A DNA stretch of 53,363 nucleotides. Source: an uncultured Psychroflexus sp. (GTDB taxonomy: Bacteria > Bacteroidota > Bacteroidia > Flavobacteriales > Flavobacteriaceae). Location of the stretch: NCBI GenBank assembly GCA_913062845.1, contig CAJXVZ010000016.1:1-53363 (forward strand). The letters run 5' to 3'. The position numbers and the translations under genes are program-made. The notes under the pieces were generated by a model. The model was not told where the DNA came from. It did no database searches and saw nothing but the letters and a program-made list of their open reading frames with translations. Position 1 is the first letter of the stretch. Every line of letters begins with the position of its first letter. Below, one piece after another: positions 29,303-49,213 of this stretch.

Positions 29303-29366
29303 GCGGGTTCTCCTCGATCCCGAAGTTTCGGGACGGGACCGTCTTTCGCTCTTTTTTATTTAAGTT
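29303..29366 (+). pseudogene. 3' fragment of tRNA-Gly interrupted by a palindrome in the T-loop
   Basis: GCGGGTTC (29303-29310) repeats the 5' side of the tRNA-Gly T-arm. CCGTCTTTCGCT and the trailer CTTTTTTATTTA (29339-29362) repeat its 3' end and flank exactly, and similarity runs on to about 29366. Between them the five T-loop bases AAATC of the real gene are replaced by 28 bases containing TCCCGAA-GT-TTCGGGA (29318-29333). The 5' two thirds of the tRNA are absent, so it cannot be functional. Confidence 0.8.
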
Positions 29367-33906: not shown

Positions 33907-34941
33907 ATGACAGAGACCAGGTCAAAAATATTGCTGATCTATACAGGAGGAACCATTGGAATGGTTCGAGACGACGAGCAAGGTAATCTTAAAGCCTTTA
34001 ATTTCAGCCAGCTATTATCTAAAATTCCGGAAATAAAACTTCTGGAACATGAGATAGAGACCATTAGCTTTGAAAATCCATTAGACTCTTCAGATTTTGG
34101 AACTAAAGAGTATCAGAAATTAGCACAAATTATTTTTGACAACTATCAAGATTACGATGGATTTGTGGTGCTCCATGGCAGTGATACCATGTCCTATTCT
34201 GCCTCTGTATTATCTTTTATGTTGGAAAATCTCTCCAAGCCCATAATTTTCACAGGTTCACAACTTCCAATAGGCGACCTGAGAACAGATGCAAAAGAAA
34301 ATTTAATTTCAAGTATACAAATCGCTGGTTTAAAGCAAAATGGCAAACCTGTCATTAAAGAAGTTGGTCTTTATTTTGAATATAAGTTATACAGAGCAAA
34401 CCGAACGACAAAAGCCAGTGCAGAGCATTTTGAAGCATTTGATTCTCCTAATTATCCGCCATTAATTCAATCTGGTGTTAATTTGAATATCAATTATGCT
34501 GCCATCAAAAAGATCAGAAAAGAAAAAAAATTAGTTCTGCATACTGATTTGGAAGACAAGATCTTATTATTAAAGCTTTTTCCCGGGTTGGATGAAACTG
34601 TTTTTAAAGCTTTATTAGAGATACCACATATTAAAGGTATTATTCTTGAAAGTTTTGGCAGTGGTAATTTTAAAACCGCAGATTGGTTTCTGGAAGGTGT
34701 TCGAAGAAAGATTGAACAATCTATCCCGGTCATAAATATCACGCAGTGTATTGGTGGAAGAGTACAAATGGGAAAATATGAAACAAGTCAAAAACTAAAA
34801 ACAATTGGAGTCATTTCAGGAAAAGACATGACCACTGAAACTGCAGTCGCAAAAATGATGTATCTTTTGCCAAAACGCTTAAGTATGAAAGTATTCAAGA
34901 CGATTTTCGAGACCTCGCTTAGAGGTGAAATTTCTGATTAG
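33907..34941 (+). CDS. ansA: L-asparaginase, type I (cytoplasmic)
   Basis: Hydrolyses asparagine to aspartate and ammonia. The 344-residue protein lacks a signal peptide, as expected for type I. The two active-site motifs are IYTGGTIGM (T13) and VLHGSDTMSYSAS (90-100), and FTGSQLPIGDLRTDAKEN follows; a C-terminal allosteric-like domain completes it. The start is the ATG 18 bases after the TatD stop. No terminator hairpin with a T-run follows; a GC-rich palindrome-like sequence lies 10 bases downstream. Confidence 0.93.
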   Translation: MTETRSKILLIYTGGTIGMVRDDEQGNLKAFNFSQLLSKIPEIKLLEHEIETISFENPLDSSDFGTKEYQKLAQIIFDNYQDYDGFVVLHGSDTMSYSASVLSFMLENLSKPIIFTGSQLPIGDLRTDAKENLISSIQIAGLKQNGKPVIKEVGLYFEYKLYRANRTTKASAEHFEAFDSPNYPPLIQSGVNLNINYAAIKKIRKEKKLVLHTDLEDKILLLKLFPGLDETVFKALLEIPHIKGIILESFGSGNFKTADWFLEGVRRKIEQSIPVINITQCIGGRVQMGKYETSQKLKTIGVISGKDMTTETAVAKMMYLLPKRLSMKVFKTIFETSLRGEISD

Positions 34942-34950
34942 AGCCTCACT

Positions 34951-34979
34951 ATCCCGAAGCCTCGAGACCTCCGAGGGAT
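34951..34979. repeat. GC-rich palindrome-like element after ansA
   Basis: ATCCC (34951-34955) pairs with GGGAT (34975-34979), and CCTCG with CGAGG forms an alternative inner stem. It begins TCCCGAAG like the palindromes at 29318 and 35081, but lacks a T-run, so it reads as a decayed member of that family and not as a terminator. Confidence 0.4.
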
Positions 34980-35020
34980 GGACTTTTGTATTTTGTTGGG
35001 AAAGGAAATAATAAAATTAA

Positions 35021-35051
35021 TTGCTTACTCAATCAAATATGCTTTAATTTG
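35021..35051 (+). promoter_or_regulatory. Candidate promoter of tRNA-Ser (TTG-N20-TTAATTTG)
   Basis: TTG at 35021-35023 and TTAATTTG at 35044-35051 (one mismatch to TAnnTTTG) are 20 bases apart. They lie 10 bases before the first tRNA-Ser 5' fragment and 118 bases before the intact tRNA, so transcripts would carry both fragments as a leader. Confidence 0.4.
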
Positions 35052-35061
35052 CAAAATATTT

Positions 35062-35120
35062 AGAGAAGTGACCGTCCCGATCCCGAAGCTTCGGGACTTG
35101 AAGGTCGAAGGCGAAGTTTT
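35062..35120 (+). pseudogene. 5' fragment 1 of tRNA-Ser with a palindrome in the D-loop
   Basis: AGAGAAGTGACCG (35062-35074) matches the first 13 bases of tRNA-Ser with two changes, and GGTCGAAGGCG (35103-35113) matches the D-arm remainder exactly. Between them the tRNA's AGT is replaced by 28 bases holding the perfect 16-base palindrome TCCCGAAGCTTCGGGA (35081-35096). AAGTTTT then leads into the next copy. Confidence 0.8.
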
Positions 35121-35169
35121 AGAGAGGTGGCCGTTCCGATAGCTATCGGAAGGTCGAAGGCGAAGTTTT
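35121..35169 (+). pseudogene. 5' fragment 2 of tRNA-Ser with a different palindrome in the D-loop
   Basis: AGAGAGGTGGCCG (35121-35133) and GGTCGAAGGCG (35152-35162) match the real tRNA-Ser perfectly. The AGT between them is replaced by the perfect 18-base palindrome TTCCGATAGCTATCGGAA (35134-35151). AAGTTTT joins it directly to the intact tRNA, as it joins fragment 1 to this one. Confidence 0.82.
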
Positions 35170-35257
35170 AGAGAGGTGGCCGAGTGGTCGAAGGCGCACG
35201 CCTGGAAAGTGTGTATACGCCAAAAGCGTATCGAGGGTTCGAATCCCTTCCTCTCTG
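35170..35257 (+). tRNA. tRNA-Ser (anticodon GGA)
   Basis: An 88-base class II tRNA: acceptor AGAGAGG/CCTCTCT, D-arm with GTGGTCGAAGGC, anticodon loop CTGGAAA (anticodon GGA), variable arm TATACGCCAAAAGCGTAT, T-arm GAGGG-TTCGAAT-CCCTT, discriminator G. CCA is not encoded (GCA follows). Two 5' fragments precede it and a 3' fragment follows about 150 bases later. Confidence 0.96.
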
Positions 35258-35264
35258 CAAAAGA

Positions 35265-35293
35265 AAATCCATAACGACAGTTGTGGATTTTTT
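35265..35293 (+). terminator. Terminator after tRNA-Ser
   Basis: A 10-base-pair stem (AATCCATAAC / GTTGTGGATT, one G-T pair) with loop GACA runs into TTTTTT, 8 bases after the tRNA. Confidence 0.85.
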
Positions 35294-35404
35294 GTTTTTA
35301 GAAACGTTGAAAGCTAAAAGGTTTCATAAGTGTATAAAAATGAAAAAGACACAAAATCACGATAGTGATTTGGATTTTTATGCTTGCTCAAGATAACTTA
35401 AAAT

Positions 35405-35440
35405 GGGTTCATGAAAAATAATCCATTCCTCTCTACAAAA
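35405..35440 (+). pseudogene. 3' fragment of tRNA-Ser
   Basis: GGGTTC (35405-35410) and TCCATTCCTCTCTACAAAA (35422-35440) match the T-arm and 3' end of tRNA-Ser with its flank (TCCCTTCCTCTCTGCAAAA) at 17 of 19 positions. The T-loop GAA between them is replaced by 11 AT-rich bases. There is no palindrome here, but the break falls in the same T-loop as in the tRNA-Gly fragment. Confidence 0.65.
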
Positions 35441-35442
35441 AT

Positions 35443-35476
35443 AAAAGCCCCCAAACCTCCAAGGAGTGCTTTTTAT
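35443..35476. terminator. Terminator between the tRNA-Ser region and the DUF3857 gene (probably two-way)
   Basis: AAAAGC and GCTTTT flank an inner CCTCC/GGAG stem; T-rich runs lie on both sides. It ends the minus-strand DUF3857 transcript about 40 bases after its stop and could also stop read-through from the tRNA side. Confidence 0.65.
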
Positions 35477-35514
35477 TTAAATCGAAAGCTTAAATATTCC
35501 AGAAGTTAAATAAT

Positions 35515-37455
35515 CTATTCTTTTACCTCGATTAAAAAACTTTGCGCTTTTATTACCTCATCATAAAAATCTCTAAGTTCAACATATTCATTAGGAAAAT
35601 AAATGTGTTTATTAAAGGACAGCTCACTAAATAGTAAAATTTTGTTGTCCTCTTGAGATACTTTCAAAAGATAACCACCACCAGAATTGGAGAGCTTTAC
35701 ATTTTTATTTTCAGGCAAATTATTGACTTTATATTTATTAGGTAATTTGATACTTACAGAATAAGCATAGGTTCTAGGATAACCAAAATTGACTGGGTAT
35801 TTCCTCTCTTTTAAAGTAAAAGGATTTTCAACAATGTTTTTTAAGACAAATGGGGAATATAGCATCCGATTGTCAATTTCACTATTGAATGTAACTTCAA
35901 AATTTTGAATCAATTTCTCTTCTAATTCATGTTGATTTTTTAAGCTAAAATTTTTTAAGCTTAGATTAGGAAACAAGTTTTGAAAATTATTTTGGTATTG
36001 TTCAAAGGGATTATTTTTCAGTATATCTCTCACATCTGATGAAAAGTAACCATCACTTATTATGGTAAGATCTCCTTTTAATTTAAAATCGTCTTCAAGT
36101 GTTAAGTCTAATTTAATGTGCTCAAAAGATGGTAAACCTGAAGAAACATCTATCCAATAACTCTCTTCTGCAATGTCTAGAACTCTACCTTCTCCATTAA
36201 GACACCTGAAAGGGAGTTGACCAAATGGCAAGGTCTTTTCTGTCACGTCAAGCAAATAAGTTTTATCATCAATATTTAATTTAACAACTAAGTAGTTAAA
36301 ATCCTTTACGTTAGGGTAAACTTTTGTGATCAAACCATTTTCTCTAGTTGATAAGACAACAATATTAGTTTCTAAGCCAGATGCTTTAAGAGAATTATAT
36401 AAAATTAAGTTGAGAGCATCTGCGCTTCCATTTTTTTCTTTAAAAACATTTTTTATATCTATTTCTCTGAGGCTTCTATTAGTTTTATCCCAAAATAGCG
36501 ATTTTTGAATGTATTTATATATTGCTTTGGCCTTAGTTAGCTTGTTTTTAATTGATAAAATATTTTCAGGTAGTTTTCTTTTAAAATATCTTTCCTTATC
36601 AATTTGATTGTCTAGAAAACGTTTCTTTAAAGTTTCATCTGCATCTGCCCAAGTGTTTGTGTATTTATTGGCTCTATTATAAAGATTGGTAAAGGATTTT
36701 AAGTCCCAGACAAGTCTAGACCTATAATTATCTTTACTAGTCATGTGTTTTTCTTCAACAAATGCAGGAATTAAATCCATGCTGAGAGAATACAAAGCAC
36801 ATCCACCAGATCCAAAATTTGGAATATACATGCAATTCTTTTTTACAGATTGAAAATTTTTGCTGAGTGGATGATATCCAAATAATCTAAAGTTATAATC
36901 AAAGTTACCTAAAATTGAAGCATTGAATTCGCTCTTTATCTTTGGAATATCTGATTGAAAATACCAATCATCAAGTTGAGAATATGGGCTAATTATACTG
37001 TAAGAATATTCTATAATCGCTCCTTCACTTACGTTTGGAAATGTAAATTTAGTTTCTGTCCAAAATTCGTCTCTTTCTATTACAAATATGTCTTTTTCTT
37101 CAAGTTTTGTTTTTACGATTTCATCATTAACTAAATTATATGTAGTTGCTTGAATATCTAACACTTCCTCCTCTTTGTATGTCGGAATTACGATATCTGA
37201 TCTGGAAAAAGCATCTTTATTAAATAGCTTAATTCGAAAAAAATAATCTGTTCTAAATTTATATTCATTTTCTTCATCTATATACAAATTAGCCTTTTCG
37301 AATAAAACAAGAGCATTTGCCAAACTATCATTCTTGTATTGTTTAAGAAGCAATTCTTCCTTATTTACTTCTTCAACATTTGTGTCGAAATCAATCTGAC
37401 AAAAACTGGTATAAGTGAATATAAAGAAAATTAAATATGATAAAAGTAACTTCAT
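35515..37455 (-). CDS. DUF3857/transglutaminase-like family protein, catalytic Cys absent
   Basis: A 646-residue periplasmic or secreted protein. A signal peptide (MKLLLSYLIFFIFTYTSFC) is followed by an N-terminal DUF3857 domain (about 50-250) and a transglutaminase-like fold (about 265-400). Where active transglutaminases have a Cys this protein reads EKNGSADALNLIL, so it cannot be a classic Cys protease; Bacteroidetes relatives often share the loss. A C-terminal beta region (DUF2569/3858-like position, about 420-646) completes it. A second ATG 33 bases earlier would place a hydrophilic stretch before the signal peptide and is rejected. The gene is visibly more AT-rich than its neighbours and stands alone. 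Confidence 0.8.
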   Translation of the reverse strand: MKLLLSYLIFFIFTYTSFCQIDFDTNVEEVNKEELLLKQYKNDSLANALVLFEKANLYIDEENEYKFRTDYFFRIKLFNKDAFSRSDIVIPTYKEEEVLDIQATTYNLVNDEIVKTKLEEKDIFVIERDEFWTETKFTFPNVSEGAIIEYSYSIISPYSQLDDWYFQSDIPKIKSEFNASILGNFDYNFRLFGYHPLSKNFQSVKKNCMYIPNFGSGGCALYSLSMDLIPAFVEEKHMTSKDNYRSRLVWDLKSFTNLYNRANKYTNTWADADETLKKRFLDNQIDKERYFKRKLPENILSIKNKLTKAKAIYKYIQKSLFWDKTNRSLREIDIKNVFKEKNGSADALNLILYNSLKASGLETNIVVLSTRENGLITKVYPNVKDFNYLVVKLNIDDKTYLLDVTEKTLPFGQLPFRCLNGEGRVLDIAEESYWIDVSSGLPSFEHIKLDLTLEDDFKLKGDLTIISDGYFSSDVRDILKNNPFEQYQNNFQNLFPNLSLKNFSLKNQHELEEKLIQNFEVTFNSEIDNRMLYSPFVLKNIVENPFTLKERKYPVNFGYPRTYAYSVSIKLPNKYKVNNLPENKNVKLSNSGGGYLLKVSQEDNKILLFSELSFNKHIYFPNEYVELRDFYDEVIKAQSFLIEVKE

Positions 37456-47851: not shown

Positions 47852-48853
47852 TTATTTCACATCTAGATTTTCCCAATACCAGTCCACAGCTTCTTTTAAA
47901 CCTGCTTCAAACTCATGTGTTGGCTTGTAGCCTAAAAGATCTTTGGCTTTAGCTATTGAAGCTAAAGAATGCGGCACATCACCTTTACGATTTGGACCGT
48001 GTTTAATTTCGATGTCTGCGATTTTAGAGTCATAAGCAGAAAGGTATTCTTTAAGCAATTCTGCCATATCCTTTATAGTGGTTCTGTCTCCAACTGCTGT
48101 ATTATATACCTGATTGAGGGCATTTTCGTTATCTGTTGTTATGGCCAGAACATTCATTTGAATGACATTATCTATGTAAGTAAAATCACGCGAATAGGTG
48201 CCATCTCCGTTTATGGTTGGACTTTCGTGTTTCATCAACTGAATAACAAATTTAGGGATTACCGCAGCATAAGCACCTTTGGGATCCTGTTTTCTTCCAA
48301 AAACATTAAAATACCTTAAACCAACAGTATCCAAATCATATGTCAATTTAAAATTTTTAGCGTATAATTCATTGACATATTTAGTGATAGCATAGGGTGA
48401 AAGCGGATTGCCTATAACATCCTCAACTTTAGGCAAAGATTTGGAATCACCATAAGTAGAAGAACTTGCCGCATAGACAAAACGTTTAACGCCCTGATCC
48501 CTTGAAGCAACAAGCATATTCAAAAAACCATCAATATTAGCCTGATTGGTGGTGATTGGGTCTTCAATAGAACGAGGTACAGAACCCAGAGCAGCTTGGT
48601 GCAAAACAAAATCAACACCCTTACATGCTTTTTGACAGGTCTCTAAATCTCTTATATCACCTTCTATAAAGTTGAAATATTGATTATCCAATAAATGTCG
48701 GATATTGTGATAATGCCCCGTGGCAAAATTATCCAAAGCAACAACCTTAACTTCGTTAGAAACCAGATACTCACAAAGGTTAGACCCTATAAATCCCGCA
48801 GCTCCTGTAACTAATACAGTTTTATCTTTAAGTAAATTAATTTGTGCTATCAT
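47852..48853 (-). CDS. wbpP: UDP-N-acetylglucosamine (or UDP-GlcNAcA) 4-epimerase, WbpP/TviC type
   Basis: SDR-family NAD-dependent sugar-nucleotide epimerase of 333 residues. Rossmann motif GAAGFIG (17-23), the YAITK catalytic pair (Y154, K158), the ASSSTYGD segment, and WbpP-like phrases HQAALGSVPRSIEDPITTN, GLRYFNVFGRRQDP-like YFNVFGRKQDPKGAYAAVIPKF and YSRDFTYIDNVIQMN. With the TviB-like dehydrogenase nearby it should supply UDP-GalNAcA (or UDP-GalNAc) for a surface glycan. Its first codons overlap the end of the GIY-YIG gene. A truncated copy of its start, about three quarters identical at DNA level, lies about 360 bases upstream. Confidence 0.9.
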   Translation of the reverse strand: MIAQINLLKDKTVLVTGAAGFIGSNLCEYLVSNEVKVVALDNFATGHYHNIRHLLDNQYFNFIEGDIRDLETCQKACKGVDFVLHQAALGSVPRSIEDPITTNQANIDGFLNMLVASRDQGVKRFVYAASSSTYGDSKSLPKVEDVIGNPLSPYAITKYVNELYAKNFKLTYDLDTVGLRYFNVFGRKQDPKGAYAAVIPKFVIQLMKHESPTINGDGTYSRDFTYIDNVIQMNVLAITTDNENALNQVYNTAVGDRTTIKDMAELLKEYLSAYDSKIADIEIKHGPNRKGDVPHSLASIAKAKDLLGYKPTHEFEAGLKEAVDWYWENLDVK

Positions 48854-49106
48854 TGTTATTTTTATTTAAATCTGTAAAATAAGATTTGAGGCGATTTTTT
48901 AGAAACATTTTCACATAATGGGTTTTTAAATATTTCTCTCTTTTAGTTGCATCCCTTTGCGTTAAACACGCCTCATAATATATTAGTTTAAATGGTCTTC
49001 TATGTTTTGTGGATTGAACTTTTCCAGATTGATGAGCCTCAAATCTTAATGACAAATTTTTAGTAAATCCGGTATATTTTTTCCCATCTTTAAGATTTAG
49101 AAGCAC
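48837..49106 (-). CDS. Short GIY-YIG nuclease-like protein, N-terminus clipped
   Basis: An 89-residue GIY-YIG domain protein: KKYTGFTKNLSLRFEAHQ carries the YIG-like part and the catalytic Arg, and STKHRRPFKLIYYEACL is typical of the small UPF0213/YhbQ-like family. The GIY strand should be TYVLL; those codons exist, but a TAA lies directly before them, so translation must begin at the GTG inside the strand, losing a few residues. The gene sits between a truncated epimerase start and the intact epimerase, overlapping the latter by 17 bases. It could be a marginally functional nuclease or a decaying mobile passenger. Confidence 0.75.
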   Translation of the reverse strand: MLLNLKDGKKYTGFTKNLSLRFEAHQSGKVQSTKHRRPFKLIYYEACLTQRDATKREKYLKTHYVKMFLKNRLKSYFTDLNKNNNDSTN

Positions 49107-49141
49107 ATAAGTTTAATAAAATCCATCCATTTGTCATTATT

Positions 49142-49213
49142 TCATGGGTTGAACCCAGCGGCTCCGGTAACTAATACAGTTTTATTTTTCAATAATTTCA
49201 TTTGTGTTTCCAT
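49142..49213 (-). pseudogene. Truncated 5' end of a second WbpP-like epimerase gene
   Basis: On the minus strand an ATG opens 23 codons, METQMKLLKNKTVLVTGAAGF then NP and TGA. KNKTVLVTGAAGF equals the nucleotide-binding start of the intact epimerase (KDKTVLVTGAAGF). Similarity extends into the leader (TTTAAAT...ACAATG in both). It ends abruptly in the glycine loop and the GIY-YIG gene begins about 35 bases further on. It is clearly a remnant and not a gene. Confidence 0.85.

Follow-up and report, generated by a model that had tools for sequence, protein, structure and literature searches.

Broken tRNA-Ser(GGA) fragments in an uncultured Psychroflexus as probable remnants of miniature, tRNA-targeted elements associated with small GIY-YIG nucleases

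tRNA genes are essential, and they are known chiefly as landing sites of large integrase-borne islands. In Escherichia coli, the rtT repeats of tyrT lie 3' of the tRNA gene and contain its 3' end; to our knowledge, they possess neither a T-loop palindrome nor a nuclease gene. The T-even phages encode a free-standing GIY-YIG homing endonuclease, SegB, whose gene lies beside tRNA genes; according to the portion of the report drawn on here, SegB cuts tRNA-containing DNA and the tRNA-segB unit undergoes SegB-dependent tandem amplification (PMC13096335). Mobile ORFs of fungal mitochondria, found in atp6, atp9, cox2 and nad3 of Glomus and in atp6 of Allomyces, are portrayed in the excerpted account as carrying a copy of the host-gene end, the atp9 ORF being a GIY-YIG one (PMC3630166). 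The Slx1-like/UPF0213 proteins are, in the cited section of their survey, predicted to function in repair and to have descended largely vertically (PMC1564403). GIY-YIG elements in bacterial tRNA genes were not described among the open-access matches listed, which is no proof, and subscription papers were mostly absent from that set.

Here, we describe a 53,363-nucleotide stretch of DNA from an uncultured Psychroflexus sp. (CAJXVZ010000016.1; hereafter the window), in which two broken 5' fragments of the tRNA-Ser(GGA) gene lie directly ahead of the intact one, their D-loops replaced by palindromes. We assign a probability of about 0.7 to the reading that these fragments belong, as copies lacking an ORF or as remnants, to a family of miniature mobile elements that are target-specific and that in their complete state possess a single small GIY-YIG gene. 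The features of the locus, and of a tRNA-Gly locus in the same window, are as follows:

29303-29351, plus strand: 3' piece of tRNA-Gly(GCC), situated downstream of the intact gene; its T-loop contains a nested palindrome of 28 nt
35043-35051, plus strand: promoter-like TTTAATTTG, just 5' of copy 1
35062-35120, plus strand: tRNA-Ser(GGA) 5' fragment 1, consisting of AGAGAAGTGACCG, an insert, GGTCGAAGGCG and AAGTTTT
35075-35102, plus strand: insert 1, 28 nt, in the D-loop of fragment 1
35081-35096, plus strand: palindrome TCCCGAAGCTTCGGGA of insert 1, nested behind TCCCGA
35121-35169, plus strand: tRNA-Ser(GGA) 5' fragment 2, consisting of AGAGAGGTGGCCG (positions 1-13), an insert, GGTCGAAGGCG (positions 17-27) and AAGTTTT
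35134-35151, plus strand: insert 2, the perfect 18-bp palindrome TTCCGATAGCTATCGGAA in place of the D-loop AGT
35170-35258, plus strand: intact tRNA-Ser(GGA)
35262-35293, plus strand: terminator-like hairpin 3' of tRNA-Ser(GGA) (one found against 0.8 expected, no evidence alone)
35405-35436, plus strand: degraded tRNA-Ser(GGA) 3' piece, consisting of GGGTTC, 9 nt without a palindrome, and AATCCATTCCTCTCTAC

A first-pass annotation of this DNA had the tRNA start and D-arm occurring three times in a row. This holds for the D-arm GGTCGAAGGCG, which has exactly three occurrences in the window (35103, 35152 and 35186); the exact 13-mer start occurs only twice (35121 and 35170), because the start of copy 1, AGAGAAGTGACCG, differs at two bases from that of tRNA-Ser(GGA). 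The annotation was accurate in placing AAGTTTT joints after copies 1 and 2 (within 35062-35258), in having the D-loop AGT replaced by a 28-nt insert in copy 1 and by exactly TTCCGATAGCTATCGGAA in copy 2, and in placing a promoter-like element, TTTAATTTG, ahead of copy 1. We take the latter to be a putative promoter element; a sigma-70 scan gave no plus-strand match at 35043-35051. A 34-nt stretch is repeated exactly at the locus with a spacing of 49. The palindromes of both inserts exceed chance: TCCCGAAGCNTCGGGA, at up to three mismatches, gave 6 matches (three places, both strands) against 0.42 expected, and CCGATAGYTATCGG, at up to one mismatch, gave 2 (one place, both strands) against 0.00. 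The gene at 35170-35258 is the only one for tRNA-Ser(GGA) among the 35 ARAGORN entries of the draft genome, and Rfam models found nothing but this tRNA at threshold over 34000-36000. The locus bears no GIY-YIG gene, which counts against a homing origin. Nested forms close to insert 1 are found in pieces of tRNA-Gly and tRNA-Val in the same genome; in L257 one precedes a tRNA-Met, and in L259 one occurs with no tRNA detected nearby. Directly 3' of an asparaginase-like gene (named from its translation), a TCCCGAAG...GAGGGA hairpin at 34950-34980 is related to insert 1, yet lies outside any tRNA piece.

Comparison of the Ser(GGA) locus with its counterparts in the genus reveals an empty site. At three same-genus loci (L007, L014 and L019), a TTTAATTTGCAAA element is followed by the intact tRNA 9-10 nt past TTTG; in the window, fragment 1 begins 10 nt past TTTAATTTG, and the intact gene lies 108 bases further on. 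Fragment 1 thus occupies the site at which the relatives' intact tRNA starts. Inspection of 29 other tRNA-Ser(GGA) loci revealed no such 5' fragment; the nearest features are a single 10-nt match 329 nt upstream of the tRNA in L014 and an 11-nt 3' piece downstream of it in L017 and L019. This genome is the only one of 199 in the family to yield the exact fragment pattern, and none of the others showed a Ser(GGA) D-loop fragment, with or without an ORF. Similar units were not found beside Ser(GGA) itself in the related genomes searched; the architecture does recur at other tRNAs, including the same D-loop break, also ORF-less, before a tRNA-Ser(TGA) (L256, in G025). One contig, from a deltaproteobacterial MAG (L032, JAFDDA010000115.1, 4616-4679), was the sole match to a pattern of a Ser fragment before a tRNA-Ser.

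These counts bear directly on the proposal that the fragments constitute a leader RNA which acts on RNase P processing or expression, or which yields small RNAs. The promoter-like element does lie 5' of both copies, and the inserts lengthen the D-stem into longer hairpins, as such a leader might. A leader with a function of its own, one of the options first annotated, is not supported, in view of its absence from the 29 other Ser(GGA) loci and its presence in only 1 of 199 family genomes, of the unremarkable folding of leader plus tRNA (z -1.2, with 26 of 200 shuffles at least as good), and of the existence of a mirror type that sits 3' of the tRNA. We rejected this candidate on the grounds of conservation and folding, and regard it as very unlikely.

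The mirror type is represented in the window itself, by the tRNA-Gly(GCC) piece at 29303-29351, and both arrangements are widespread in the genome. A same-strand piece of the tRNA itself, at least 12 nt long and within 400 nt, accompanies 18 of 33 tRNA entries; opposite-strand self pieces within that distance accompany one entry, and among control pairs of tRNAs for different amino acids 21 of 1012 had a piece. The 33 entries represent 31 distinct sequences (two of the 35 ARAGORN entries lay at contig ends and lacked a sequence), and exact-word matching misses degraded pieces such as the 5' piece before tRNA-Ser(TGA). The 5' pieces sit upstream and are broken in the D-loop, as in Val(TAC), Leu(TAG), Pro(GGG) and Met, with a break extending from the D-loop into the anticodon arm in Arg(TCT). 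The 3' pieces sit downstream, often carry a copy of the trailer, and are mostly broken in the T-loop (Val, Gly, Tyr, Met and Phe), the Asn piece being broken in the anticodon arm. Break points recur: Phe 56|62 was found in five genomes, and an Asn break near 25|36 in five.

Across all loci collected, 48 split pieces contained 41 distinct inserts. Their mean best stem was 6.0 bp, compared with 3.1 in letter shuffles (the highest of 1000 shuffle means was 3.6), and 28 of the 41 had a stem of at least 6 bp (shuffles: mean 0.7, most 4). The other 13 fell below 6 bp, which counts against a homing origin. Some pieces contain other repeats, for example CTGAGCTTGTCGAAG in Lys and Gly(TCC), and some have no clear palindrome, as at 35405-35436.

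The form of these pieces also bears on two further explanations. The integration of islands is known to leave tRNA pieces next to tRNA genes, as noted in the excerpt consulted (PMC9897764), and the pieces might accordingly be attachment-site remnants of integrase-borne islands or phages. Here, however, the pieces are split internally, often by a palindrome, they are found on either side of the gene at distances of tens to hundreds of bases, and the gene-to-piece stretches inspected have room for little more than one ORF of about 90 codons; we find this origin most improbable. An assembly artefact would be suggested by the several draft contigs that end at tRNA genes, but the same architecture is present in other drafts and in the one-contig genome G010 (L165 and L192). 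Such recurrence in many genomes makes an assembly error, which the annotation had allowed for, unlikely, and we give it next to no weight. Contigs C14, C38, C71, C113, C116 and C134 of this draft (G000) end a few bases from tRNA genes, and more repeated units may therefore be collapsed or lost.

In this genome, tRNA-Ser(TGA), Asn, Met and Leu(TAG) each have a small GIY-YIG gene on their downstream side and, beyond it, a piece of that tRNA; another such gene precedes tRNA-Cys, where no piece was detected. PF01541 matches occur in at least 26 of 27 genus genomes and include long proteins of about 600 and 455 amino acids. Among the matches listed, a tRNA on the same strand and no more than 300 nt away accompanies 36 of 105 small GIY-YIG loci, and none has one on the opposite strand; the gene follows the tRNA in 28 and precedes it in 8. 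A piece of that tRNA lies beyond the nuclease gene in 31 of these 36, and 24 of the 31 pieces have a hairpin stem of at least 6 bp within 30 nt, compared with 220 of 1160 windows taken at random from these loci. Also among the matches listed, three counts run against a homing origin: 69 of the 105 loci have no same-strand tRNA within 300 nt (most of them in other clades of a 122-domain tree), a far-side piece went undetected at 5 of the 36 tRNA-linked loci, and 7 of the 31 pieces lack a 6-bp stem. For the genus, 70 stretches were picked by hand among the matches listed, a sample that favours high-scoring small genes. The count of 105 leaves out L119 (which overlaps L136), a spurious Phe, four loci fetched twice and four loci without a small GIY-YIG match.

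These genes are found in two layouts. One comprises the tRNA, a terminator, the GIY-YIG gene and a broken 3' piece; its mirror comprises a broken 5' piece, the GIY-YIG gene and the tRNA, and here the end of the gene may overlap the tRNA start. Tandem arrays are also present. Exact repeats follow tRNA-Phe in L127. In L166 (G013:C34:5000-11800), eight GIY-YIG units recur at a spacing of about 364 bp, accompanied by hairpins and tRNA-Met-like pieces; ARAGORN detected no intact tRNA in that stretch. At least seven ORF-less 5' units precede a tRNA-Met in L165. At Phe and Asn, ORF-bearing and ORF-less units have break points and palindromes in common.

The tRNA-linked GIY-YIG genes fall in one part of the 122-domain tree (support 0.80, midpoint root), and the nuclease subfamilies sort by target tRNA: the 12 target labels require 12 changes on the tree, compared with a mean of 29.5 and a minimum of 25 for shuffled labels, and with one row per locus (33 rows) the 12 changes compare with a mean of 24.3 and a minimum of 21. 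For this test L126 was relabelled Arg(TCT) from a spurious tRNA-Phe(AAA) built of Arg pieces. Such sorting would be equally expected from plain vertical inheritance of each locus. The tRNA-linked nucleases are under purifying selection, the dN of 11 same-target pairs being 0.16-0.40 and their dS 1.4-2.1 in six and saturated in five. PF01541 scores above its cut-off, and Y6, Y17, G19, R27, H31, E65 and K69 (the Y, Y-x-G, R, H, E, K set) are invariant in 23 chosen aligned sequences. As in free-standing homing endonuclease elements, the family thus has a GIY-YIG domain with its catalytic residues, and it combines a fixed insertion site in a conserved target gene with target-specific lineages; an empty site in relatives, as such elements leave, is seen at the Ser(GGA) locus. 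Two of four queries, L127 and L099, matched TIGR01453 (group I intron endonuclease) below its cut-off; L192 had a single match among PDB sequences, 1ywl (UPF0213; E 0.006), L127 had none there, and the L127 nuclease had no match in phage records.

Alternatively, the ends of tRNA genes might have been duplicated in tandem and then received dispersed palindromic repeats through another enzyme, the GIY-YIG genes being separate passengers. This would suit the Ser(GGA) copies, which have no ORF, as well as the presence of the same palindromes away from tRNAs in L033, L034, L044 and L046 and of other repeats, such as CTGAGCTTGTCGAAG, in the Lys and Gly(TCC) pieces. It is at odds with the coupling of side and break (5' pieces upstream, 3' pieces downstream, the break in an arm), with the break points and palindromes shared by ORF-bearing and ORF-less units at Phe and Asn, and with nuclease clades that track the tRNA target, and we consider it rather unlikely. 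The first annotation's suggestion of stepwise insertion of a small palindromic element with flank duplication comes close to what the comparison reveals; it did not foresee that the pattern is genome-wide and tied to GIY-YIG genes.

The elements seem to extend beyond the genus. The A2 profile matched 43 of 60 family genomes at E no greater than 1e-8, a count that includes this genome and other GIY-YIG clades, and a tRNA lies on the same strand and no more than 500 nt away at 17 of the 30 best-scoring family loci (16 of 29 once L226, the locus of this genome, is set aside). A junction palindrome, judged by eye, is present at all six loci of other genera that were inspected (L230, L233, L236, L240, L241 and L242). 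A pattern of T-loop plus palindrome was found in 10 of 395 class genomes, including this one; the reversed pattern gave no match in the table for the 395. Three of these genomes, from other families (G279, G420 and G113), have a tRNA with pieces of itself. A tRNA lies about 100 nt from the pattern, without exact pieces, in G159 and 1.1 kb from it in G324, and G229 and G442 have a GIY-YIG gene without a tRNA. In G053 (one place) and G270 (eight places) neither a tRNA nor a GIY-YIG gene was found in the stretches examined, some of which end at contig ends; these matches are counted against a homing origin.

Related arrangements also exist outside tRNA genes. An epimerase-like gene in the window is organized as follows:

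48400-48853, minus strand: start of the intact epimerase-like gene (part read)
48888-49118, minus strand: GIY-YIG match with one in-frame stop, between the epimerase-like fragment and the intact gene
49151-49213, minus strand: 5' fragment of the epimerase-like gene (ATG ... VLVTGAAGF), then AACCC

The same order of fragment, GIY-YIG gene and epimerase-like gene is found in two relatives (L124 and L132). Because this gene shows it, the layout of fragment, nuclease and rebuilt gene is not limited to tRNA genes. In L125, L137, L149 and L156, a GIY-YIG gene lies between the inverted ends ACCTGTGAAAT and ATTTCACAGGT and splits a small four-helix-type gene (this name and epimerase-like were judged from translations); the split gene is conserved and is not rebuilt, and these bounded units resemble a minimal insertion sequence. 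Other GIY-YIG clades, with no tRNA detected beside them (L090, L111, L122, L131, L135, L145 and L157) lie amid dispersed repeats such as GTCATGCTGAACTTGTTTCAGCATCT, or TTCTCGATACAAT...ATCACTCGAACTGACA.

A repeat common to both flanks was found at 36 of 54 testable tRNA-less GIY-YIG loci, compared with 6 of 57 control windows; the test took 57 of 83 tRNA-less small GIY-YIG matches, those of the tRNA clade and doubtful ones being left out by hand, and three of the 57 were too short, hence 54. Some inserts are nested in the form TCCCGA-TCCCGAAGTTTCGGGA-CGGGA, a palindrome within a palindrome. It is possible, though we hold the idea only tentatively, that small GIY-YIG nucleases move dispersed palindromic repeats in this bacterial group, as a counterpart of the REP/RAYT system, by inserting palindromes into the loops of existing hairpins, whether tRNA arms or palindromes, one branch being specific for tRNAs. 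As part of the same tentative proposal, the tRNA branch would be tolerable to the host through the rebuilding of the tRNA, and the other branches would reside in repeat arrays or split genes.

Our preferred reading, that of miniature elements directed at tRNA genes, starts from observations on the architecture and position of the pieces, the empty site, recurrence among genomes, the link with GIY-YIG genes, target-sorted subfamilies and purifying selection. A GIY-YIG nuclease would cut within one of the hairpin loops of the tRNA gene (the D, anticodon or T loop), and repair would insert the element together with a fresh copy of the severed part of the gene. The intact tRNA would thereby be rebuilt beside the element, and the displaced piece would persist as the leftover fragment, its loop filled by a palindrome. 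At 35062-35169, the D-loop of tRNA-Ser(GGA) would have received the insertion, after which the unit would have been tandem-duplicated or added twice. Cutting and repair from a donor allele would account for how the gene comes to be rebuilt and a leftover remains, why the break point is fixed and the layouts mirror each other, and why the tree sorts by target. We class the Ser(GGA) locus as an ORF-less relative rather than a full member, since it bears no ORF; we read its copies as members without an ORF for two reasons: at Phe and Asn, units with and without an ORF share break points and inserts, and an ORF-less D-loop break also precedes tRNA-Ser(TGA) in L256. No ORF-bearing Ser(GGA) unit was found among the 199 family genomes, and we therefore infer, rather than observe, an ORF-bearing ancestry. 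The palindrome is not accounted for by homing and repair; it may destroy the site and so keep the leftover piece uncut, or it may be the real substrate. That the rebuilt tRNA still contains the presumed target counts against this scheme.

Units of about 50-400 bp seem to have struck roughly one in two tRNA genes in a single genome. They also seem to recur throughout a family and in some genomes outside it, and to restore the gene that they hit. A homing origin would account for the odd tRNA pieces in these genomes. The elements also provide a collection of minimal GIY-YIG nucleases, about 80-110 amino acids long and target-specific, and the origin of palindromic repeats in this group becomes testable.

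The SegB protein is larger than the nucleases described here. Like the rtT repeats, the units include repeats that follow a tRNA gene and contain its 3' end. The likeness to SegB lies in a nuclease gene adjoining tRNA genes and in tandem units; SegB differs in residing in phage genomes, the cited part of its report describes no rebuilt tRNA with a broken leftover, and palindromes go unmentioned in the main text (PMC13096335). On the basis of that part, SegB provides a precedent, established by experiment, for GIY-YIG enzymes that cut tRNA DNA and generate tandem repeats. With the Slx1-like/UPF0213 proteins, as characterized in the excerpt, the nucleases share a stand-alone minimal GIY-YIG domain, from which group they differ in being multi-copy and target-linked (PMC1564403). 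The fungal mobile ORFs, in the sections drawn on, likewise place an endonuclease ORF in a conserved gene, replace the severed end and leave the native end behind, a layout similar to that of our epimerase-like gene; theirs are mitochondrial protein genes, whereas ours are mainly bacterial chromosomal tRNA genes, in which insertion occurs at either end of the gene and the leftover contains a palindrome (PMC3630166).
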